A DNA stretch of 38,085 bases from Blastococcus sp. CT_GayMR20. GTDB taxonomy: Bacteria; Actinomycetota; Actinomycetes; Mycobacteriales; Geodermatophilaceae. A program made the translations under genes and the position numbers. Below the pieces are notes generated by a model. The model searched no databases. It had not been told where the DNA came from and saw nothing but the letters and a program-made list of their open reading frames with translations. The stretch covers positions 1 through 38,085 of the forward strand of contig NZ_SPQM01000036.1 of assembly GCF_004570345.1 (NCBI RefSeq), written 5' to 3'. Below are positions 406 to 11,856 of this stretch, in pieces. Numbering within the stretch: the first letter of the stretch is position 1; each line of letters starts with the position of its first letter.

Positions 406-921
406 TCACTCAACCACGGCCGGCGCGATCAGCCGGAAGGCTTCCAGTTCCACGTCGTACCAGCGACGGAAGAGGCCGAGCGGCTGCATGCCCAGCCGGG
501 CGCAGACCGCCAGGGACGCCGCGTTGCCGGGTCGGACGACGGCGTAGACCTCCGGCAGCCCGGCGTCGAAGCCGCGCTCGATGACCGCGCGAGCCGCCTC
601 CGTCGCGTACCCGTGCCCCCAGCAGTCCGGGTGCAGGTGCCAGCCGACCTCGACCTCGCCGACGCCGTGGGGCAGCGGCTTGAACAGGACCGTCCCGGCC
701 ACCACGCGGTCCGGGAGCTCGATCGCCCAGCAGCCGAACCGCGCGTCCAGATCGTGCACCCGCGCCCACCGGGCGACCAGCTCAGGAGGCGCAACGGACG
801 GCGTCCCGCCCAGCCAGCGGCTCACCTCGTCCCGGCCGTAGAGATCGGCCAGCCGGGCGAGATCCGCGGGCGCCGTCGTCCACGCCCGAAGGCGCAGCCG
901 CGCGGTGCGCAGCTCCTCCAT
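406..921 (-). CDS. GNAT family N-acetyltransferase (RimJ/RimL-like)
   Basis: A 171-residue protein that probably transfers an acetyl group from acetyl-CoA to an amine. The N-terminus (TARLRLRAW) and the acetyl-CoA pyrophosphate loop CWGHGYATEAARAV at about residues 99-112 are typical of the Acetyltransf_3 (RimJ/RimL) group, and the length fits one GNAT domain. It lies 45 bp downstream of kamA and 6 bp upstream of the hydrolase on the same strand, so the three are probably co-transcribed. In methanogens and some bacteria a lysine 2,3-aminomutase pairs with a GNAT (AblA/AblB) to make N-epsilon-acetyl-beta-lysine. This protein is shorter than AblB and looks like a different GNAT subgroup, so that role is only a possibility. 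Confidence 0.85.
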   Translation of the reverse strand: MEELRTARLRLRAWTTAPADLARLADLYGRDEVSRWLGGTPSVAPPELVARWARVHDLDARFGCWAIELPDRVVAGTVLFKPLPHGVGEVEVGWHLHPDCWGHGYATEAARAVIERGFDAGLPEVYAVVRPGNAASLAVCARLGMQPLGLFRRWYDVELEAFRLIAPAVVE

Positions 922-966: not shown

Positions 967-2376
967 TCAGTTGAGCAGGTCCGCCGCCGACGCTGCCCGG
1001 GACGACGCGGCCTTCAGCTCCGCAGCCACCGGATCGTGCTCCCGCTCGGCCCACCACGACTGCCCGCTCGCCGGCAGCGTCGCGATCGGGTCGTAGTAGG
1101 TGTACCGCCGGTCGAGCGCCGCCTCGTCGGTGCGCTCGATCCCCGTGCGGTAGTTCTTCGTCCAGTAGCTGATGCCCCGCTCGCGGTCGTACTCGGCGAC
1201 CTGGTGCACCCAGCGCTTCCCGACGTAGGGCACATCGCAGACGATCCGAGGTGTCGCGAACCCGGGCAGGTAGCCCATGACGTCGTGCTGCAGTGTCTGG
1301 GCCTGGGCCAGCGAGACCCGCCAGTGCTCGGCGCTGGGGATCATGTCGCACATGTAGAAGTAGTAGGGGGTGATCCCCGCACCGTCGAGCAGCGCGAAGC
1401 AGAGGTCGAGCAGCTGCGTCGCCGAGTCGTTGACGCCCCTCAGGAGCACGCCCTGGTTGCGGACGTCGCGCACACCGGCGCCGAGCATCGCCTGGGCGGC
1501 CTCGGCCACCAGCGGCGTCACCGACTGGGCGGCGTTGACGTGCGTGTGGACGGCGAGGGACACGCCGCGGGCCCGGGCGGTCGTGGCCAGTCGTGTCATG
1601 CCCTCGACGACGTCGTCCTGGAGCCAGTGCTGGGGGAGACCCATCAGCGCCTTGGACGCCAGCCGGATGTCGCGGACCGACTCGATCTCCAGCAGGCCGG
1701 CCACGAACGCCTCCAGGTTCTTGAACGGCAGGTTGGCGACGTCGCCGCCGGAGACGACGACGTCGCGGACGCCGGGGGTCGCCCGCAGGTAGGCGAGCAT
1801 CTCCGCCTGCCGGTCCACCGGCTTGAGCTCGAACTTCAGCTTGGGGACGGCGGGCGTCGAGTTGCCCACCAGGTCCATGCGCGTGCAGTGGCCGCAGTAC
1901 TGCGGGCAGGTGGACAACAGCTCGGCGAGCACCTTGGTCGGGTACCGGTGGGTCAGCCCCTCGACGGCCCACATCTCGTGCTCGTGCAGCGAGTCGCGCG
2001 CGGCGTACGGGTGGCTCGCCGCCGCGCCCGGCAGCCGGTCCGACGCCACGGGCAGCATGTAGCGGCGCACCGGGTCCGCGAGCATCGCGGCCGTCGTCGG
2101 CACGTGCGCAGGCACCATCGTGTTGAGCATCTGCGGGGGCATCAGGAGTGACATGGTCGCCCGGCCGGCCTGGTCGGCCTCGACGTCGGCGTAGAAGGAC
2201 TCGTCGAGCAGGTCGCCGTAGACCCCCCGGAGCTGCCGGAGGTTCTTCACGCAGTTGGTGCGCTGCCACTGGGCGCTGCGCCACTGCTCCCCGGTCACCT
2301 CGGCGAAACCGGGCAGCCGACGCCAGTCGGGCTCGACGAGCTCGCGCGCCGCATACTCGTAGGGCTGTTCGAGCAC
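967..2376 (-). CDS. kamA: lysine 2,3-aminomutase (KamA family radical SAM enzyme)
   Basis: Family role: interconverts L-lysine and L-beta-lysine with a [4Fe-4S] cluster, SAM and PLP. The radical-SAM motif CPQYCGHC gives C157, C161 and C164. The SAM-binding GGD-type loop SGGDVANLP follows at about 209-217, and K387 in CDVPYVGKRW is the likely PLP lysine. The 469 residues are somewhat longer than clostridial enzymes. The start is GTG 2376, because AAGGAGGGGAG lies just upstream (about 2391-2381) and the kdd promoter region begins there. It is divergent from kdd-amidohydrolase-kamD-kamE-kal, which encode the following steps of the same pathway, so beta-lysine is very likely the intermediate. A role in making beta-lysine for another product cannot be excluded. 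Confidence 0.93.
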   Translation of the reverse strand: MLEQPYEYAARELVEPDWRRLPGFAEVTGEQWRSAQWQRTNCVKNLRQLRGVYGDLLDESFYADVEADQAGRATMSLLMPPQMLNTMVPAHVPTTAAMLADPVRRYMLPVASDRLPGAAASHPYAARDSLHEHEMWAVEGLTHRYPTKVLAELLSTCPQYCGHCTRMDLVGNSTPAVPKLKFELKPVDRQAEMLAYLRATPGVRDVVVSGGDVANLPFKNLEAFVAGLLEIESVRDIRLASKALMGLPQHWLQDDVVEGMTRLATTARARGVSLAVHTHVNAAQSVTPLVAEAAQAMLGAGVRDVRNQGVLLRGVNDSATQLLDLCFALLDGAGITPYYFYMCDMIPSAEHWRVSLAQAQTLQHDVMGYLPGFATPRIVCDVPYVGKRWVHQVAEYDRERGISYWTKNYRTGIERTDEAALDRRYTYYDPIATLPASGQSWWAEREHDPVAAELKAASSRAASAADLLN

Positions 2377-2504
2377 GGTGCTCCCCTCCTTGGCTCGGCG
2401 CTGCGGTTCTCCGCACCACGGGTGAGCCTACGGGAGAATCTTCGGCATTTCGCGCTCGACGCGATAGGTTCTTCTGCACCGAACGGGTGAGACGGGAGAG
2501 ACGC
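2377..2504. promoter_or_regulatory. divergent kamA/kdd promoter region with paired direct repeats
   Basis: The 128 bp between the divergent starts hold two direct repeats at 2405-2426 and 2467-2491. Both read GGTTCT, two bases, GCACC, two to four bases, GGGTGAG, and their starts are 62 bp apart. A minus-strand -10-like TAGGCT (2430-2425) points to a kamA start inside copy 1. A plus-strand TAGGTT (2465-2470) with a weak TTCGGC 18 bp upstream points to a kdd start inside copy 2. The -35 matches are poor, so the promoters are tentative, but the repeats are plain in the sequence. GGGAGAG at 2494-2500 is the kdd ribosome-binding site. There is no room for a cobalamin riboswitch. Confidence 0.55.
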
Positions 2505-3536
2505 GTGCGCACAGCGGCAGAACGGGCACTCGGCGTGCATCGCGTGCTCGACCCCCCGGGCGTCCTGCCCCAGGCGGCCCAGCGGCTCGACGCCGACCCG
2601 GCGATCGCGCTGGACGAGGTCCGCATCGCCGTGGAGCGGCTCAACCTCGACGCCGCGTCCTTCCGTCAGCTCTCCGAGGCGCACGGTGGTGACGGCGACG
2701 CCGTACGGGCCGCCGTCCTGGAGATCGTGCGGACTCGCGGCAAGATGCAGAACCCGGTCACCGGGTCCGGCGGCATGCTCATGGGCGTCGTCGATGCCGT
2801 CGGCCCGGAGTCGCCTCTCGGGCTGGTCGTCGACCAGCGGGTGGCCACCCTCGTCTCGCTGAGCCTGACCCCGCTGTGGATCACCGACGGCCTCGACCGG
2901 TGGGACGGCCGGTCCGAGCAGGTGCCGGCACACGGCACGGCGATCCTCTTCGCCCGCTCCATCGCCGCCGTGCTGCCCGACGACCTGCCCGACGCGGTGG
3001 CGCTCGCCGTCCTCGACGTGTGCGGGGCACCGGCCCTCACCGCGCGGGTCGTCGAGCGGACCGGCGCGCGGTCGGTCGCCGTCCTCGGGGCGGCGGGCAA
3101 ATCCGGCTGCCTCAGCCTGGCCGCCGCGGCGGCCGCCGGGGCCCAGGACCTCACCGGTCTCGTCCGGAACGAGTCCGAGGCCGCCGCCCTGCGCGCAGCC
3201 GGGCTGGCGGACCGCGTCGTCGTCGCCGACGCCACCGACCCGCTGGCCGTCGCGGCCGCCGTCGGCACCCCGGCCGACCTGACCGTCGTCTGCGTCGACG
3301 TGCCCGGCGCGGAACACGGCGCCGTACTCGCGACGGCCGACGGGGGCACCGTGGTCTTCTTCTCCATGGCCACCTCCTTCCCGGCGGCGGCACTCGGTGC
3401 GGAGGGAATGGCGGCGGACGTGACCATGCTGGTCGGCAACGGCTACACGCCCGGCCACGCCGCCCTCGCCCTGGATCTCTACCGCTCGAACCCCGGCGTC
3501 CGGGCCCTCGTCGATCCGCGCGTGACCGGATGCTGA
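2505..3536 (+). CDS. kdd: L-erythro-3,5-diaminohexanoate dehydrogenase
   Basis: Family role: NAD(P)-dependent oxidative deamination of L-erythro-3,5-diaminohexanoate to 5-amino-3-oxohexanoate plus ammonia. The 343-residue length and the N-terminus GVHRVLDPPGVLPQAAQRLD match the Kdd family. The Rossmann nucleotide-binding loop VAVLGAAGKSG lies at about 191-201. An open frame extends upstream, but GTG 2505 is chosen because GGGAGAG sits about 5 bp before it and family homology begins here. The gene overlaps the next by 7 bp and is first in a five-gene operon. Kdd is essentially restricted to the lysine-fermentation pathway, so it is the strongest single indicator of what the cluster does. Confidence 0.9.
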   Translation: MRTAAERALGVHRVLDPPGVLPQAAQRLDADPAIALDEVRIAVERLNLDAASFRQLSEAHGGDGDAVRAAVLEIVRTRGKMQNPVTGSGGMLMGVVDAVGPESPLGLVVDQRVATLVSLSLTPLWITDGLDRWDGRSEQVPAHGTAILFARSIAAVLPDDLPDAVALAVLDVCGAPALTARVVERTGARSVAVLGAAGKSGCLSLAAAAAAGAQDLTGLVRNESEAAALRAAGLADRVVVADATDPLAVAAAVGTPADLTVVCVDVPGAEHGAVLATADGGTVVFFSMATSFPAAALGAEGMAADVTMLVGNGYTPGHAALALDLYRSNPGVRALVDPRVTGC

Positions 3537-5038
3537 TCTCCGACATCACCATCGGGGACCGCTCCGGCCGGGCGGTGCACGTCGTCGACGGCCGGATCGC
3601 GTGGGTCGGCGACGCCGCCGACGCACCGGCCGCCGACCGCGTGGTCGCGGGGGAGGGGGCGCTGCTCACCCCGGCGTTCGTCGACTCCCACGTGCACGCC
3701 ACGGCGACCGGGCTGGCCCTCAGCGGGCTCGACCTCCACTCGAGCTCGAGCCTCGCTGCGGCGACGACGTCCGTCGCTGAGCACGTCCGCCGCACCCCGA
3801 CGGGCATCGTGCTGGGCACCGGGTGGGACGAGACCGGCTGGCCGGAGGGACGGGGACTCACCCGGGCCGACCTCGACGCGGTCGTCGGCGACCGGCCGGC
3901 CTACCTGGCGCGGGTGGACGTCCACTCCGCGACGGTCTCGACCGCCCTCCTGGACCTCGTCCCCGGCATTGCCGAGCTGCCCGGCTGGTCCGCCGAGGGG
4001 CAGCTCCGGCTCGACGCCCACCACGCGGCCCGGCAGGCCGCCTACGGGGCGATCGGCCCCGAGCAGCGGCGGACGGCGCAGCGGGCGACCCTCGACACCG
4101 CCGCCGCGCTGGGCATCGGCAGCGTCCACGAGATGGCCGGCCCGGAGGTCTCCAGCGCCGACGACCTGGCCGCCCTGCTCGAGCTGGCCGCCGGACCGGG
4201 ACCGCGCGTGCTCGGCTACTGGGGCGAGCTCGCCGAGCGCGGCGGGCTGGCGCTGGTCGGGGAGCTCGGGCTGGCCGGCGCCGGGGGAGACCTGTTCTGC
4301 GACGGCGCGTTCGGCTCGCACACCGCCGCACTCGGCAACGGTCCCTACGCCGACCGGCCGGACACCGCCGGCACACTCCGCTTCGCGACCGGTCAGCTCG
4401 CCCACCACGTCCGGGCCTGCACGCTCGCGGGCATCCAGGCCGGGTTCCACGTCATCGGGGACGCCGCGGTCGCGCAGGTCATCTTCGCCGTCGAGACCGT
4501 CGCCGCCGAGCTCGGGCGGCCCGCCGTCCGAGCGTGCCGGCACCGCCTGGAGCACGTGGAGATGATCGACCGGCCCGACATCGAGCGGCTGTCCGATCTG
4601 GGCATGGTCGCGAGCGTCCAGCCGGCCTTCGACGCCGCGTGGGGCGGGGACGCCGGCATGTACGCCGAGCGGCTGGGCGTCCACCGGGCGCTCGCGACCA
4701 ACCCGTTCGCCGCGATGGTCGACGCGGGTGTGGCGGTCGCCCTCGGCAGCGACGCACCCGTGACCCCGCTGGACCCGTGGGGCGGCGTGCACGCGGCGGT
4801 CGACCACCGCACCCGTTCGTCGGCCCTGCGCCCGTTCGACGCCTTCGACGCCGCCACGCACGGGGGCTGGTACGCCGCCCGGGCCGAGCACCCCGACGGT
4901 CCGCTCGCCGTCGGCGCCCCTGCGGACCTCGCGCTCTGGGCCACCGCGGACACCCTGTCCGGCCTCCTGGACGAACGGTCGCGCCCCGCGTGCCGCCTGC
5001 TCGTCGTCGACGGCGAGCCGATCGGAGACCTCCCATGA
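3530..5038 (+). CDS. YtcJ-like amidohydrolase (amidohydrolase 3 family)
   Basis: A 502-residue metal-dependent hydrolase. Visible metal and active-site motifs are DSHVHA (H54, H56), FHVIGD (H307), CRHRLEHVEM (H338, H342) and GSDAPVTP (D408). The stretches TGWDETGWP and DGAFGSHTA are typical of YtcJ/exoenzyme-regulatory-type amidohydrolases. ATG 3530 overlaps the kdd stop by 7 bp and the gene's own stop overlaps the kamD start by 4 bp, so it is translationally locked into the lysine operon. No amidohydrolase belongs to the textbook pathway. It could act on an acylated or cyclised intermediate, or on an amide of lysine feeding the pathway; this is inference and the substrate is unknown. Confidence 0.88.
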   Translation: MLISDITIGDRSGRAVHVVDGRIAWVGDAADAPAADRVVAGEGALLTPAFVDSHVHATATGLALSGLDLHSSSSLAAATTSVAEHVRRTPTGIVLGTGWDETGWPEGRGLTRADLDAVVGDRPAYLARVDVHSATVSTALLDLVPGIAELPGWSAEGQLRLDAHHAARQAAYGAIGPEQRRTAQRATLDTAAALGIGSVHEMAGPEVSSADDLAALLELAAGPGPRVLGYWGELAERGGLALVGELGLAGAGGDLFCDGAFGSHTAALGNGPYADRPDTAGTLRFATGQLAHHVRACTLAGIQAGFHVIGDAAVAQVIFAVETVAAELGRPAVRACRHRLEHVEMIDRPDIERLSDLGMVASVQPAFDAAWGGDAGMYAERLGVHRALATNPFAAMVDAGVAVALGSDAPVTPLDPWGGVHAAVDHRTRSSALRPFDAFDAATHGGWYAARAEHPDGPLAVGAPADLALWATADTLSGLLDERSRPACRLLVVDGEPIGDLP

Positions 5039-6654
5039 CCACCCTGTCGCTCGATCCCGCGCTGGTCGCCCGCGCCCGGCAGCTCGCTGCGCTCGCCGCG
5101 CGGCCGGTGATCGACCTGGCGCACCGGCACACCACCGTGTCCGTCGAGCGGGCCGTGCTGCGGCTCGCCGGGCTGACGGGCACCGACCCGGTGACGGGGG
5201 AGGGTGCGCCCGGGGTCGGTGGGGTGGGTGGCAACCCAGTGGACCGCGTGCCCTGGGTGAATCGCGTGGTCGACGCCGTCCGCGACCAGGTCGGCCTGGA
5301 GTCGGGCGTCGCGCTGCCGGTCTGGCACGCCCTCGCGTCGGGGAAGTCCCTGCAGGGACTGGCCGAGGACGTCGGGGCCGGGACCGCCCGCTTCGAGATC
5401 CCGACGGGCGCCGACGCCGACCGCGCCCGCGAGGCAGCCCGGGACGCCGCGGCCGCCGGCATCGCCCGCATCGACGCCAACCGGCGCCGGCGCGAGGAGC
5501 TGGTGTCCAGGCACGGCGACCCGCCCCGCCGTCCCTGGATCTACCTCATCGTCGCGACCGGGGACATCCACGAGGACATCCCGCAGGCCCAGGCCGCCGC
5601 GCGGGCCGGGGCCGACGTCATCGCCGTCATCCGGTCCACCGGGCAGTCGCTGTTGGACTACGTGCCCGAGGGCGCCACCCGCACCGGCTACGCCGGCACG
5701 TACGCCACCCAGGAGAACTTCCGGCTCATGCGGGCGGCGCTGGACGAGGTCAGCGCCGAGCTCGGCCGCTACGTCCGGCTGACCAACTACGCGTCCGGAC
5801 TGTGCATGCCGGAGATCGCCGTCCTGGCCGGGCTGGAGCGGCTGGACATGATGCTCAACGACGCGATGTACGGGATCCTCTTCCGCGACATCAACCCGCG
5901 GCGCACCTTCGTCGACCAGCGGTTCAGCCGGATGGTGCACGCCCGCGCGGGGATCATCATCAACACCGGCGAGGACAACTACCTGACCACCGCCGACGCC
6001 GTCGACGAGGCGCACACCGTCACGGTCAGCCAGCTGCTCAACGAGACGCTGGCCAAGGAGGCGGGCCTGGAGGACTGGCAGCTCGGTCTCGGGCACGCCT
6101 TCGAGATCGATCCCGACCGCCCGGAGTCCTTCCGGCTGGAGCTGGCGCACGCGCTGCTGGCCCGGTCGCTGTTCCCCGACGCACCGCTGAAGTGGATGCC
6201 GCCGACGAAGCACATGACCGGCGACGTCTTCCGCGGCTACCTGCTCGACGGCTTCTTCAACCTCGCCGGCGCGCTCACCGGCCAGGGGATCCTGCTGGTC
6301 GGGATGATGACCGAGGCCGTGGTCACCCCGTGGCTGTCCGACCGCGACCTGGCGCTGCGCAACGTCCGCTACGTGCTGAACTCCGCGGGCAACCTGGCCG
6401 AGGACTTCGCGCCGCCACCCGGCGGCTTCATCGACCGGCGGGCCGACACCGTGCTGCGCGAGGCCGTCGACCTGCTCGGCCGCATCGCCGACCACCCCGA
6501 GGGGCTGATCCAGGCGATCGCCGACGGCACCTTCGGCATCACCAAGCGGCCCCCGGACGGCGGCAAGGGACTCGACGGCGTCGTCGCCACCGGGCCCGAC
6601 GCGTTCAACCCGGCGCTGGAGCTGCTCGAGGCGAAGGAGACCGCAGATGCCTGA
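5035..6654 (+). CDS. kamD: lysine 5,6-aminomutase alpha subunit
   Basis: Large subunit of the adenosylcobalamin- and PLP-dependent aminomutase that moves the terminal amino group of D-lysine or L-beta-lysine. With beta-lysine the product is L-erythro-3,5-diaminohexanoate, the Kdd substrate. The 539-residue protein contains family-specific stretches such as RSTGQSLLDYVPEGATRTGY, YATQENFRLMR, TNYASGLCMPEI and WMPPTKHMTGDVFRGY; the last is the most recognisable. It is slightly longer than the roughly 516-residue clostridial subunit, with a Gly/Pro-rich insertion near residues 55-70. ATG 5035 overlaps the upstream stop as ATGA. The beta subunit follows with an 8-bp overlap, as expected for a heteromeric enzyme. 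Confidence 0.95.
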   Translation: MTTLSLDPALVARARQLAALAARPVIDLAHRHTTVSVERAVLRLAGLTGTDPVTGEGAPGVGGVGGNPVDRVPWVNRVVDAVRDQVGLESGVALPVWHALASGKSLQGLAEDVGAGTARFEIPTGADADRAREAARDAAAAGIARIDANRRRREELVSRHGDPPRRPWIYLIVATGDIHEDIPQAQAAARAGADVIAVIRSTGQSLLDYVPEGATRTGYAGTYATQENFRLMRAALDEVSAELGRYVRLTNYASGLCMPEIAVLAGLERLDMMLNDAMYGILFRDINPRRTFVDQRFSRMVHARAGIIINTGEDNYLTTADAVDEAHTVTVSQLLNETLAKEAGLEDWQLGLGHAFEIDPDRPESFRLELAHALLARSLFPDAPLKWMPPTKHMTGDVFRGYLLDGFFNLAGALTGQGILLVGMMTEAVVTPWLSDRDLALRNVRYVLNSAGNLAEDFAPPPGGFIDRRADTVLREAVDLLGRIADHPEGLIQAIADGTFGITKRPPDGGKGLDGVVATGPDAFNPALELLEAKETADA

Positions 6655-7393
6655 CGGGAGCATCGTCCGGCCCTACGGCGACACCACCGGCGACGGCATG
6701 GTGCAGACGTCGTTCACGCTGCCAGTGCCGGCCGGCCCGAGGGCCGAGGGCGCCGCCCTGCAGCTGGCGAACAAGATGGGCATCGAGCCGGCGATGGTCG
6801 TGCACAGCCACGCCATCGACGCCGGCTACACGTTCTTCGTCGTCTACGGCAGCGTCAAGCACCTCGTCGACCTCGACGCCGTCGTCGTCGAGGAGCGCGC
6901 CTACCCGCTGCTGTCCTCGTCGGAGATCAACGGCGCCATCCGGGCAGGCCTCAACCGCAAGATGGTCGTCCTCGGGGCGTGCATCGGCACCGACGCCCAC
7001 ACCGTCGGCATCGACGCGATCCTCAACGTGAAGGGCTTCGCGGGGGAGAAGGGCCTGGAGTACCTCCGCGAGATGGCGGTGACGAATCTCGGCGCCCAGG
7101 TGACGGTGCCCGAGCTGGTCACGAGGGCGCGCACCGCCCGAGCCGACGCCGTCCTCGTGTCCCAGGTCGTCACGCAGAAGGACGCGCACCTGCGCAACAC
7201 CCGCGAGCTCGCCGCCGCGTTCCGCGAGGCGATGGGGGAGTCCCGGCCCCTGCTGGTCGTCGGCGGCCCCCGCTTCGAGCCCGCCATGGCCGCGGAGCTC
7301 GGTGTCGACAAGGTCTTCGGCCGGGGGACGACGCCCGGCGAGGTCGCCAGTTACCTCATCTCCGCCCTCCTACCGGAAGCGAGCTCCGCATGA
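6647..7393 (+). CDS. kamE: lysine 5,6-aminomutase beta subunit (cobalamin-binding)
   Basis: Small subunit of 5,6-LAM, 248 residues. It has the base-off/His-on cobalamin motif DAHTVG (D116, H118, G121), in which H118 should coordinate cobalt. K129 in LNVKG is exactly 11 residues after H118, the same spacing as H133 and K144 in the Clostridium sticklandii enzyme, where the lysine forms the PLP Schiff base. The C-terminal half is a Rossmann-like B12 domain ending LLVVGGPRFEPAMAAELGVD. Active-site residues therefore look intact. ATG 6647 overlaps kamD by 8 bp, and the stop overlaps the kal start as ATGA. Confidence 0.95.
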   Translation: MPDGSIVRPYGDTTGDGMVQTSFTLPVPAGPRAEGAALQLANKMGIEPAMVVHSHAIDAGYTFFVVYGSVKHLVDLDAVVVEERAYPLLSSSEINGAIRAGLNRKMVVLGACIGTDAHTVGIDAILNVKGFAGEKGLEYLREMAVTNLGAQVTVPELVTRARTARADAVLVSQVVTQKDAHLRNTRELAAAFREAMGESRPLLVVGGPRFEPAMAAELGVDKVFGRGTTPGEVASYLISALLPEASSA

Positions 7394-7779
7394 CCGACCC
7401 ACGTCTGGGCCTCACCGTCACCCACCGCCGCTACGTGCCCTACGCGCACGCCCACTACGGCGGAGCGCTGGTCGACGGCGCCTACACGCTCGGCCTGTTC
7501 GGCGACGTCGCCACCGAGGTCGCGATCGTCATGGACGGCGACGAGGGCCTGCTCGCCGGCTACTCCGAGGTGCGGTTCCTGGGTCCGGTGCGTGCCGGCG
7601 ACGTCCTGGAGGCCACCGTCGAGGTGGTGCGCGTGGGCCGTCGCAGCCGTGAGCTGCGCTGCACCGCGCAGGTCGTGGCCCGCGCCGAGCCGGAGCGCGG
7701 TCCGTCCGCCGCCCGGGTCCTCGAGCCGCCGCTGCCGGTCGTCGAGGCGACCGCGACCCTCGTCGTACCCGGGCCTTGA
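7390..7779 (+). CDS. kal: 3-aminobutyryl-CoA ammonia-lyase (hotdog fold)
   Basis: Family role: removes ammonia from L-3-aminobutyryl-CoA to give crotonyl-CoA, the last dedicated step of the pathway. The 129-residue single hotdog domain carries AHAHYGGALVDGAYTLGLFG near the N-terminus and a following VRFLGPVRAGDVLEATVEV segment, as in Kal and beta-alanyl-CoA ammonia-lyases. ATGA coupling to kamE and its place at the operon end support Kal over a generic thioesterase. Its presence implies that 3-aminobutyryl-CoA is formed, yet the enzyme that normally makes it (Kce, DUF849) is not in this window. Confidence 0.87.
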   Translation: MTDPRLGLTVTHRRYVPYAHAHYGGALVDGAYTLGLFGDVATEVAIVMDGDEGLLAGYSEVRFLGPVRAGDVLEATVEVVRVGRRSRELRCTAQVVARAEPERGPSAARVLEPPLPVVEATATLVVPGP

Positions 7780-8264: not shown

Positions 8265-9902
8265 GTGCCGGCAGGACATGGTGGGCCGGTCACCGGCACG
8301 CTCCCACGGCCGGCCGGCCCCTCGTCGTCCCCGCCCCCGGTCCGGGGCGGACGGCGCCGTCCCTGGCGCACGCTGCTCGCGCTGGCGGGCGGGCTCGTGC
8401 TGGTCCTCGCCTTCCCCGGCTGGTCGCTGCCGTTCCTCGCGGTGCTCGGCCCCGCGGCACTCGCCCTCGCCGTCCGCGGCGAGCGGTTCCGGTCCGGCCT
8501 GTGGCTCGGGCTGGTCTTCGGTCTCGCGTTCTTCGTGCCGCTGCTGTCCTGGAGCGGCACCTACGTCGGCTCCTTCCCGTGGCTGGCGCTCGGCGTCTTC
8601 CAGGCCTCCTACCTCGCCCTCCTCGGCGGTGCCTCCGCGCTGACGTCGCGGCTGCGGTGGTGGCCGCTGTGGACGGCGTCCCTGTGGGTCGCGGCCGAGG
8701 CCCTGCGCGGGCGGTTCCCGTTCGGCGGCTTCCCCTGGGGACGGCTGGGCTTCAGCCAGACCGACGGCCCGCTGCTCGCCCTGGCGGCCTACGGCGGCGT
8801 CCCCCTCGTCAGCTTCGCCGTCGCCCTGATCGGCACGCTGCTGGCCGCGGGGGTCCTCGCCCTGCTCCGTGCCTGGTCCGCCCCCTCGCGCGGCCCCGGA
8901 CTGCGCTCGGCGGCGGCGGCCCTCGCCGTCGCTCTGGCCGTGCCGCTGGCGGGCGCGCTCGCGTGGCTGCCGCTGCCCGGGCCGTCGCTGACCGAGGGCG
9001 GGCCGACGTCGACCGTCGCGATCATCCAGGGCGACGTCCCGCGGGCCGGGCTGGAGTTCAACGCCCAGCGCCGGGCGGTCCTCGACAACCATGTGCAGCG
9101 GACCCTCGAGCTGGCGGAGCGGGTGGCAGCGGGGGAGCAGCCCCGACCGGACGTGGTCGTGTGGCCCGAGAACAGCTCCGACATCGACCCGTTCACCAAC
9201 GCCGACGCGGCCCGGCAGATCGACCGGGCGGCCCGGGCCGTCGACGCGCCGATCCTCGTCGGCGCGGTCGTGGAGGGTCCGGGCGAGTTGATCAGCAACA
9301 CCGCCGTGGTCTGGGACCCCGTGGACGGCCCGGGCGACACCTACGTCAAGCGCCATCCGGTGCCCTTCGCCGAGTACATCCCGCAGCGTGCGTTCTTCCG
9401 CCTGTTCAGCGACAAGGTCGATCTGGTCCGGCGCGACTTCGCCGCCGGCGACGAGGTCGGGGTCCTCGACGTGGGCGGGGTGCGGCTGGGCGACCTCATC
9501 TGCTTCGAGGTGGTCTACGACGGACTCACCCACGACGTCGTCGACGGCGGCGCCGGGATGATCGTCGTCCAGACCAACAACGCGACGTTCGGCTACACCG
9601 ACGAGAGCGAGCAGCAGCTCGCCCTGAGCCGGCTTCGAGCCGTCGAGCACGGCCGCAGCGTCGTCATCGCCGCCACCAGCGGAATCTCCGCGGTCGTCGC
9701 CCCCGACGGGTCCGTCGTCCGTTCGACGGAGCTCTTCGAGCCGGCGGTGTTCGTCGAGGAGATCGCCTCGCGCGACTCGAGGACGATCGCGCTCCGGCTG
9801 GGGGCCGCACCGGAGTGGGCGCTGACCGCGCTCGGCACCGGCGCCCTGCTCGTCGCCGCGGTGCCCCGGCTGGCGCGGCGACGCACGGCGGCGCCGCGAT
9901 GA
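8265..9902 (+). CDS. lnt: apolipoprotein N-acyltransferase
   Basis: Membrane enzyme that N-acylates the amino-terminal cysteine of lipoproteins. The N-terminal part has several hydrophobic segments (about residues 35-235), followed by a nitrilase-type domain. The expected catalytic triad is present: E302 in WPENSS, K362 in YVKRHPVPFAEY and C413 in LICFEVVYD. The 545-residue length is normal. The frame is open further upstream, but GTG 8265 is preferred because GGGAGG lies 6 bp before it. It overlaps ppm1 by 4 bp (ATGA). In mycobacteria the two activities sit in one polypeptide (Ppm1); here they are two coupled genes, suggesting that the proteins may work as a pair in the membrane. Confidence 0.93.
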   Translation: MPAGHGGPVTGTLPRPAGPSSSPPPVRGGRRRPWRTLLALAGGLVLVLAFPGWSLPFLAVLGPAALALAVRGERFRSGLWLGLVFGLAFFVPLLSWSGTYVGSFPWLALGVFQASYLALLGGASALTSRLRWWPLWTASLWVAAEALRGRFPFGGFPWGRLGFSQTDGPLLALAAYGGVPLVSFAVALIGTLLAAGVLALLRAWSAPSRGPGLRSAAAALAVALAVPLAGALAWLPLPGPSLTEGGPTSTVAIIQGDVPRAGLEFNAQRRAVLDNHVQRTLELAERVAAGEQPRPDVVVWPENSSDIDPFTNADAARQIDRAARAVDAPILVGAVVEGPGELISNTAVVWDPVDGPGDTYVKRHPVPFAEYIPQRAFFRLFSDKVDLVRRDFAAGDEVGVLDVGGVRLGDLICFEVVYDGLTHDVVDGGAGMIVVQTNNATFGYTDESEQQLALSRLRAVEHGRSVVIAATSGISAVVAPDGSVVRSTELFEPAVFVEEIASRDSRTIALRLGAAPEWALTALGTGALLVAAVPRLARRRTAAPR

Positions 9903-10669
9903 GCGACCGCGTGCTGGTCATCGTGCCGACGTACAACGAGATCGAGAACCTCGGGCGGATCCTGGACCGCCTGCACGCCAGCGTCCCCGGTGCGCACGCG
10001 CTGGTGGTCGACGACGGGTCACCGGACGGCACCGGGGAACTGGCCGACGAGCTGGCCGCCGCCGACCCCCGGGTGCACGTGCTCCGGCGGACCGCGAAGA
10101 ACGGGCTGGGGGCGGCCTACATCGCCGGGTTCCGCTGGGCGCGGGCCAACGGCTTCGACGTGGTCGTGGAGATGGACGCCGACGGCTCGCACTCCCCCGA
10201 GCAGTTGCCGCACCTGCTCGCCGCCCTGGAGGACGCCGACCTCGTGCTCGGGTCGCGGTACGTGCCCGGGGGAGAGGTGACCGACTGGCCGGCCCACCGG
10301 CTGCTGCTGTCGCGGGCGGGCAACCGCTACACCCGCTGGGCGCTGCGCCTGCCGCTCAGCGACGCGACCGGAGGTTTCCGGGCCGCACGGGCGGAGTTGA
10401 TCGACCGGCTGCCCTTCGACGACGTCGCCAGCCAGGGGTACTGCTTCCAGGTCGACTGGGCCTGGCGGGCGGTGCGCGCCGGTGCCCGGGTCACCGAGGT
10501 GCCCATCACTTTCTCCGAGCGCACGTTCGGCAGGAGCAAGATGAGCGGCTCGATCGTTGGGGAGGCATGGATACGGGTCACCGTGTGGGGTCTGCAGGAC
10601 CGGCTGGCCGACTGGCTGCCGGGCAGGGTCCGCCGTCCCGGCGCGCAGAGAGGCAGACCTCGTGAGTGA
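9899..10669 (+). CDS. ppm1: polyprenol monophosphomannose synthase
   Basis: A GT2-family glycosyltransferase of 256 residues that transfers mannose from GDP-mannose to polyprenyl phosphate, supplying the lipid-linked mannose donor for lipoglycan and protein mannosylation. Features are the N-terminal nucleotide-binding start VLVIVPTYNEIENL, the VVDDGSPDGT motif, the metal-binding EMDADGSHSPEQLP (D93 and D95) and the acceptor-side SGSIVGEAWIRVT near the C-terminus. It resembles the soluble catalytic domain of mycobacterial Ppm1, with no large membrane extension. ATG 9899 overlaps lnt; the stop overlaps the fxsA start by 8 bp. An order of lnt/ppm1, fxsA, then convergent rbpA resembles M. tuberculosis Rv2050-Rv2053c. 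Confidence 0.92.
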   Translation: MSDRVLVIVPTYNEIENLGRILDRLHASVPGAHALVVDDGSPDGTGELADELAAADPRVHVLRRTAKNGLGAAYIAGFRWARANGFDVVVEMDADGSHSPEQLPHLLAALEDADLVLGSRYVPGGEVTDWPAHRLLLSRAGNRYTRWALRLPLSDATGGFRAARAELIDRLPFDDVASQGYCFQVDWAWRAVRAGARVTEVPITFSERTFGRSKMSGSIVGEAWIRVTVWGLQDRLADWLPGRVRRPGAQRGRPRE

Positions 10670-11180
10670 CGTCGTCGGACGACGGGTGCGGCTGTTCGCC
10701 GGCCTGCTGGTGCTCGCCGAGCTGATCGTGTTCGTCCTCGTGGCCGCCTGGATCGGGCTGGGCTGGACGATCCTGGCCACCCTCGCCACCAGCGTGATCG
10801 GCTGGATCCTGCTCGCCCGCCAGGGCACGCGCGCCCTCGCCGACCTCCGCGACCGGGCGCGCTCGCGGCAGCCGGCCGGCCGGGAGCTCGGGGACGCCGG
10901 GCTGGTGGCCGCGGGCGGTCTGCTCATGGTGCTGCCCGGGTTCATCGGCGACGTCGTCGGGCTGCTGTGCCTGCTGCCCGGCACACGCTCGCTGGTCCGC
11001 GGGGCGCTGACGTCCGTCGTCCTCGCGCGGCTACCCGACCGGTTCCGTGGCCCGGTGCGGGCCCGCAGCGTCCGGGTCGAGCAGGTCGGCGGCTACGGCA
11101 GCGGCAGCACGCGGGCCGCACCGCTGGTCATCGAGGGCGAGGTCGTCCGCGACACCCCGCCGGAGCGCCCTGCCCCCTGA
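10662..11180 (+). CDS. FxsA family membrane protein
   Basis: A 172-residue FxsA-family (PF04186) protein. The N-terminal third has two hydrophobic segments (about residues 8-50), followed by a short basic/polar stretch (RQGTRALADLRDRARS) and another hydrophobic segment around LVAAGGLLMVLPGFIGDVVGLL. That layout, with the GW-LLARQG and PGF-GD signatures, is typical of the family. E. coli FxsA relates to phage T7 exclusion by F, but the cellular role in actinobacteria is unknown. GTG 10662 lies inside the 3' end of ppm1 (8-bp overlap), so it is translationally coupled. The stop codon lies at the start of a 13-bp tandem repeat. Confidence 0.88.
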   Translation: MSDVVGRRVRLFAGLLVLAELIVFVLVAAWIGLGWTILATLATSVIGWILLARQGTRALADLRDRARSRQPAGRELGDAGLVAAGGLLMVLPGFIGDVVGLLCLLPGTRSLVRGALTSVVLARLPDRFRGPVRARSVRVEQVGGYGSGSTRAAPLVIEGEVVRDTPPERPAP

Positions 11181-11322: not shown

Positions 11323-11667
11323 TCAGCTGGCGCGGGTACGCCGGCCGCGGAGCACGTCGAGGCGCTCGGCGAGCACCTCTTCGAGGTCCTCCACGGAACG
11401 GCGCTCGAGGAGCATGTCCCAGTGGGTGCGCGGCGGCTTGACCTTCTTCGGTGCCGGCTCGGCACCGCCCACGAGCTTGGCGGCACCACCGTCGAACTTG
11501 CACTCCCACGTGTCGGGGAGCTCGGCGTCGTCGGCGAAGGGCACGGTGAACAGGTGGCCGGACGGGCACCGGTACTCGGCGTACTGCCGCTCGATCGGTG
11601 CGGTGTTCCGCTCGGTCTCGTAGCTGACGCTGCCCAGTCGGCTGCCGCGCAGGGAACGCTCGCCCAT
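11323..11667 (-). CDS. rbpA: RNA polymerase-binding protein RbpA
   Basis: An actinobacterial transcription factor that binds RNA polymerase and the principal sigma factor and stabilises the open complex. The 114 residues show the family parts in order: the N-terminal tail (MGERSLRGSRLGS), the core domain with YRCPSGHLFTVPFA and WECKFDGG (a Cys pair that may hold zinc), the basic linker PKKVKPPR, and the sigma-interaction helix region THWDMLLERRSVEDLEEVL. The frame continues upstream, but ATG 11667 matches the conserved N-terminus and is preceded by AGAGGACGG. It is convergent with fxsA and separated by strong hairpins. A SigR-type promoter is predicted upstream, as known for Streptomyces rbpA. 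Confidence 0.96.
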   Translation of the reverse strand: MGERSLRGSRLGSVSYETERNTAPIERQYAEYRCPSGHLFTVPFADDAELPDTWECKFDGGAAKLVGGAEPAPKKVKPPRTHWDMLLERRSVEDLEEVLAERLDVLRGRRTRAS

Positions 11668-11755
11668 GGCACACCGTCCTCTCGTTCGTATGTCGGTCGT
11701 GGCTCGAAGTCCGGCCATGGGGCCCATACCCACGCACCAGGGAGTCACCGTGAAG

Positions 11756-11781
11756 AACGACAGAAATCGCAGAAGGATTCC
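11756..11781 (-). promoter_or_regulatory. SigR/SigH-type promoter for rbpA
   Basis: On the minus strand GGAAT (11781-11777) is followed by exactly 18 bases and then GTT (11758-11756). This matches the GGAAT-N18-GTT consensus of thiol-stress sigma factors SigR/SigH, about 90 bases upstream of the rbpA start. Streptomyces coelicolor rbpA is known to have a SigR-dependent promoter. The motif is short, so chance remains possible. Confidence 0.6.
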
Positions 11782-11856
11782 GTCGAAACAGTGGTTCATC
11801 ATCGCATGGGATCAGATCGCCGGACGGACTGCCCCCCGTAGGGGTGAGAGCGCAGG

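Follow-up and report, generated by a model that had tools for sequence, protein, structure and literature searches.

Gene content and organization of the locus

The window, meaning the whole 38,085-nucleotide stretch of Blastococcus sp. CT_GayMR20 DNA that was analysed, contains kamA, kdd, kamD, kamE and kal at positions 967-7779, as the initial annotation had claimed, together with a gene for a YtcJ-like amidohydrolase (AH) (Table 1). kamA is on the minus strand and is divergent from kdd-AH-kamD-kamE-kal, all of which are on the plus strand. The GTG at 2505 was taken as the putative start of kdd. Consecutive plus-strand genes overlap by 7 bp (kdd/AH), 4 bp (AH/kamD), 8 bp (kamD/kamE) and 4 bp (kamE/kal). 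These coordinates agree with the earlier description of an intact AH gene locked between kdd and kamD by its overlaps, and the encoded protein has its metal motifs (HxH, H, H and D) intact. The intergenic region between kamA and kdd is presumed to be a candidate promoter region for both genes. The genes 3' of kal are lnt, ppm and fxsA on the plus strand, followed by rbpA on the opposite strand; lnt and ppm overlap by 4 bp, and the name ppm is our assumption from actinobacterial synteny. No riboswitch or other Rfam RNA in the window reached the gathering score.

A GNAT gene lies 45 bp downstream of kamA and may share its transcript. Of the 25 loci among L001-L029 that extend far enough, 20 have it beside kamA, and a role in N-acetyl-beta-lysine formation is conceivable. 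An AblA/AblB-like synthesis of N-acetyl-beta-lysine by kamA and the GNAT gene was considered; the GNAT product is a short Acetyltransf_3 protein, and no GNAT above 60 bits was seen in L030-L080.

Table 1. Features of the lysine aminomutase cluster and its flanks (positions in the window).
Feature	Position	Strand	Evidence
GNAT acetyltransferase (Acetyltransf_3)	406..921	-	PF13302 102.7 bits
kamA, lysine 2,3-aminomutase (radical SAM, PLP)	967..2376	-	2a5h E 5e-39; TIGR03820 151 bits, cut-off 525
Divergent intergenic region kamA/kdd, 128 bp	2377..2504	.	gene positions
kdd, L-erythro-3,5-diaminohexanoate dehydrogenase	2505..3536	+	NF052381 257 bits, cut-off 200; 7dl3 E 7.5e-63
Amidohydro_3 (YtcJ-like) amidohydrolase (AH)	3530..5038	+	PF07969 264 bits, cut-off 29.7; synteny without kam genes
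kamD	5035..6654	+	NF052384 671 bits, cut-off 600; 8t0v E 2.2e-160
kamE	6647..7393	+	NF052385 338 bits, cut-off 280; 9q1a E 2.2e-65
kal, 3-aminobutyryl-CoA ammonia lyase	7390..7779	+	NF052388 172 bits, cut-off 160
lnt, apolipoprotein N-acyltransferase (start uncertain)	8265..9902	+	TIGR00546 269 bits, cut-off 132.9
ppm, GT2 polyprenol-phosphate-mannose-synthase-like	9899..10669	+	PF00535 116.5 bits; NCBIfam matches all below cut-off
fxsA (start uncertain; listed ORF begins upstream)	10557..11180	+	PF04186 100.7 bits
rbpA, RNA polymerase-binding protein	11323..11802	-	PF13397 141 bits

Identity of the pathway enzymes

Kdd, KamD, KamE and Kal all score above the cut-offs of their NCBIfam equivalog models. 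KamD and KamE also match solved lysine 5,6-aminomutase strongly (8t0v and 9q1a, respectively), as Kdd matches solved 3,5-diaminohexanoate dehydrogenase (7dl3). KamA falls under the AblA cut-off (TIGR03820) and is a probable lysine 2,3-aminomutase: 2a5h, an enzyme of that kind, is the one solved structure that matches it at E <= 0.001, and the alignment keeps the CxxxCxxC motif and two aspartates that we take to bind the lysine side chain. The pathway enzymes are predicted to have the activities of their families.

The amidohydrolase occurs with and without kam genes

AH belongs to the Amidohydro_3 family, and no NCBIfam model matched it above its cut-off. All 35 kam-linked copies and at least 39 of 40 kam-less copies retain H54, H56, H307, H342 and D408, presumably the residues of the metal site. 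Among relatives with a named organism, the closest come from Blastococcus (84%), and the closest solved structures are 3igh and 3icj. The predicted structure has a clear fold (mean pLDDT 81.9). Its fold neighbours are many amidohydrolases of different substrates at close Z, with the L-Lys/L-Arg carboxypeptidase 3mtw tied among them, and the structure therefore says nothing on the substrate. The predicted activity of AH is metal-dependent hydrolysis of an amide or C-N bond.

The presence of AH was scored at E <= 1e-70 in 246 genomes sampled evenly from the class, for which a completeness of 90 was asked and which were taken as one draw for the kamD, Kce, AH and ppm counts. AH is present in 123 of the 246 genomes, and its frequency is similar with kamD (26/48) and without it (97/198; p = 0.63), leaving 22 of the 48 kamD-positive genomes without AH at this threshold. 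Co-occurrence with kamD, which was taken as the mark of a lysine-pathway enzyme, was thus not found for AH.

The AH gene has a second set of neighbours. Of the 81 kamD-negative genomes with both genes placed, 74 have ppm no more than 9 kb downstream of AH, measured between match starts; in the other seven it is 11.6-12.5 kb away (five genomes) or on another contig (two). A further 16 kamD-negative genomes with AH have no ppm among the matches listed. Strand is known from the inspected loci, where AH is followed on the same strand by lnt and/or ppm in 21 of 21 AH loci without kam genes and in 19 of 19 kam-less regions chosen from the 97. The location of AH upstream of ppm in genomes without kamD therefore marks it as most likely an old resident of an AH-lnt-ppm block. 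The contingency test and the kam-less synteny together rule out AH as a marker of the pathway. In a tree of AH proteins, built without L121 (a copy of L002), most of L001-L029 and AH pieces of <= 440 aa, kam and kam-less rows interleave with 7 changes, at least 4 of which are forced by supported branches.

The adjacency of AH and kamD does recur in several families, as the initial annotation had proposed to check. With gene starts picked by script, 22 of 26 Geodermatophilaceae-type loci, not counting the frameshifted L004, show an overlap of kdd with AH, and 12 of 28 an overlap of AH with kamD. The coupling of kdd and AH is tighter than simple adjacency would demand, and overlaps of this kind point to a common transcript but not to a common pathway. 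In other families the gaps between kdd, AH and kamD reach several kb, and L035, L046, L063 and similar loci carry extra DNA, up to several kb, between these genes. Among the loci with no measurable kdd-AH gap, kdd and kamD overlap or are < 60 bp apart in 17 of 22.

Four positions distinguish the kam-linked proteins: residues 101, 111, 157 and 232 are >= 85% one residue in kam-linked copies and < 50% that residue in kam-less copies. The clearest is E101 (97% kam-linked versus 38% kam-less). Ten positions (120, 285, 434, 436, 437, 444, 461, 475, 477 and 480) are uniform in the kam-less copies only. The kam-specific positions would fit a recruitment of AH, in kam-bearing lineages, as an accessory enzyme of the lysine pathway that, for example, releases lysine or beta-lysine from N-acyl or N-formyl derivatives or opens a lactam side product of 3,5-diaminohexanoate. 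The kdd/AH overlaps, the GNAT gene beside kamA and the carboxypeptidase among the many tied fold neighbours point the same way. Against recruitment are the independence of AH from kamD, the kamD-positive genomes that lack AH at the threshold, and the presence of this gene, its metal-motif residues unchanged, beside lnt and ppm where there are no kam genes. We judge recruitment unlikely. The same low probability applies to its more specific form, in which the kam operon took in the old AH of the lnt-ppm block and the enzyme was adapted (E101, coupling to kdd) so that it supplies the pathway or clears up after it, for example as a deacylase or deformylase of N-modified (beta-)lysine or as a hydrolase of a by-product lactam. 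Such an enzyme would represent an added hydrolytic step, and we encountered no description of one for this pathway. The pathway role that the initial annotation had inferred for AH is thus not borne out by its distribution, and AH is most likely a bystander of the lysine pathway.

In relatives, a Kce orthologue is encoded away from the kam genes

The initial annotation had noted the absence of kce from the stretch, and this holds: tblastn with four BKACE proteins (E <= 1e-5) found no BKACE/DUF849 gene in the window. Nor was one found by the same search in 80 related kamD loci, which comprise up to 10 kb on each side of kamD, many stopping earlier at a contig end. These loci are the best 80 of at least 565 confirmed and lean towards close relatives; the closest of them are mostly from Blastococcus and Geodermatophilus.

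BKACE genes do occur in genomes that contain such loci. A BKACE above the Pfam cut-off is present in 39 of 40 genomes with kam loci, three of which (G011, G021 and G023) were assigned as Kce-type by Pfam score alone. The 40 BKACE regions taken from kam-locus genomes encode 35 Kce-type proteins and five other BKACEs that are 30-35% identical to the Kce reference. The 20 Kce proteins from genomes with Geodermatophilaceae-type loci are one orthologous set, consisting of the reference (L082, Blastococcus litoris) and 19 proteins at 84-93% identity to it. The reference contains a BKACE domain (PF05853, 297 bits, cut-off 24.8), and its best solved match is the Cloacamonas Kce 2y7d (E 6.6e-60), followed by the next BKACE at 3.9e-38. 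The Kce model NF052387 is its best-scoring NCBIfam model at 269.6 bits, under the curated cut-off of 382. The residues aligned with the 2y7d metal site, whose roles we assume, are invariant in the 35 Kce-type proteins, the five other BKACEs being left out of this count.

A Fur-family gene is present in 30 of the 40 BKACE loci and a GCV_T-domain gene, presumably YgfZ-like, in 33; both are nearly always upstream and on the strand of kce, with L114 as an exception. The placement of kce behind these two genes is kept across families (e.g. L082 7262-9608).

The distribution of Kce, scored as >= 60% identity to one reference, was compared with that of kamD in the 246 genomes. Of the 48 that have kamD, 47 also have Kce, against 1 of the 198 kamD-negative genomes (Fisher p 3e-48). 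Two genomes break the pattern: G277 has kamD without kce, and G099 has kce without kamD. In a second set, Kce was found in 31 of 32 further kam-locus genomes, 3 of which are also among the 246. Of the 47 genomes that carry both kamD and kce, 40 have them on separate contigs, and in the seven genomes where they share a contig (G052, G066, G109, G122, G185, G214 and G237) they are 0.56-4.2 Mb apart. A Kce orthologue was not found in three kam-locus genomes, G018 (whose BKACE is only 31% identical), G025 and G294, which were reached via the MAG loci L023, L030 and L049. The kce-type gene is called a Kce orthologue because of this profile and its nearest structure, not because of the NCBIfam cut-off.

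One exception to the profile has a different kam arrangement. In the 9.2-Mb genome G277 (L169, contig 1, 600000-616000), kamA, kdd, kamD and kamE share a strand; the search of the genome found no kce, and neither kal nor AH was found in the 16 kb. ORFs close by match an AMP-binding ligase, a luciferase-like monooxygenase, a GNAT, an aminotransferase, an ATP-grasp protein and a thioesterase. From its gene content, the locus looks like a biosynthetic cluster with 3,5-diaminohexanoate or 5-amino-3-oxohexanoate as a building block. Among 121 genomes of its genus, kamD was found in G277 only.

The score below the curated cut-off and the distance from the kam genes would also fit an unlinked BKACE with another role, for example 3-oxoadipate cleavage, that accompanies kamD without serving its pathway. 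The Kce model beats the 3-oxoadipate model (196.5 bits), the profile with kamD is near-perfect and the metal-site-aligned residues are invariant, all of which argue against another function, and we regard it as very improbable. The initial annotation had offered two options, kce elsewhere in the genome or a different C-C cleavage or added hydrolytic step. The search that it proposed for DUF849/BKACE proteins, run on genomes of relatives, finds the first option right for the relatives, and since kce lies elsewhere in these, the source strain itself very probably carries the unlinked gene as well. The second option has no support: the unlinked orthologue in nearly all kamD genomes means that no new C-C cleavage is needed, and 25 of the 26 kamD genomes with AH have kce, the exception being G277. 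On this count AH was rejected as a replacement for Kce, and the anticorrelation between AH and kce that had been put forward for checking is therefore absent. A Kce-free route, in which AH or another enzyme cleaves 5-amino-3-oxohexanoate by hydrolysis, would fit the lack of a detectable kce in the window and beside kamD but is scarcely credible given the occurrence of Kce and the fact that 3-aminobutyryl-CoA, on which Kal acts in the established pathway (PMC3149608), would not arise from hydrolytic cleavage.

Proposed function of the locus

We are confident that the locus serves an ordinary 3,5-diaminohexanoate lysine pathway with kce elsewhere on the chromosome, and that AH is a resident of the older AH-lnt-ppm block with its own function. 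KamA would convert lysine to beta-lysine, KamDE would form 3,5-diaminohexanoate from it, and Kdd would produce 5-amino-3-oxohexanoate. Kce, encoded elsewhere on the chromosome, would carry out the acetyl-CoA-dependent cleavage of this intermediate, and the Kal step would yield crotonyl-CoA. The actinobacterial hosts of the pathway are mostly aerobic, and crotonyl-CoA probably enters beta-oxidation in them. The kam genes would lie within the older conserved block. AH, judging by the overlaps, probably shares the kam transcript here but would have a function that does not depend on lysine breakdown.

The missing step in the lysine pathway is thus very probably only apparent. Automatic annotation could overlook both KamA and Kce, since the KamA of this locus and the Kce of a relative score below the strict NCBI cut-offs and the kce gene is unlinked. 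The comparison with kam-less genomes as a control shows that overlaps can lock into an operon a gene that is an older resident of the chromosomal neighbourhood and not a pathway enzyme. For the AH family beside lnt and ppm, which is present in half of the class genomes drawn, these searches name no substrate.

Comparison with known systems

AH is about 26% identical to the YtcJ-like Amidohydro_3 proteins 3igh and 3icj, both of which are uncharacterized. The unlinked Kce orthologue of the relatives resembles Kce 2y7d (PF05853) in being full length, in its match to that structure and in keeping the motif residues. It differs in scoring under the NCBI strict Kce cut-off and in being encoded mostly behind Fur-family and GCV_T-domain genes.

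Lysine fermentation through 3,5-diaminohexanoate occurs in Clostridium and Fusobacterium. The pathway is also described for Candidatus Cloacamonas (PMC3149608). No description of an unlinked kce or of AH in actinobacteria was found in the literature searched, which included the available parts of PMC3149608 and PMC2667541 and consisted largely of papers outside subscription. The same five enzymes as in the Cloacamonas, Clostridium and Fusobacterium pathway are encoded here, with the sixth, Kce, in relatives. In contrast to those systems, kce is outside the kam cluster in the actinobacterial loci examined, kamA is divergent from kdd, and an unrelated amidohydrolase gene is found inside many of the clusters. 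The 3,5-diaminohexanoate lysine pathway is found in many actinobacteria.
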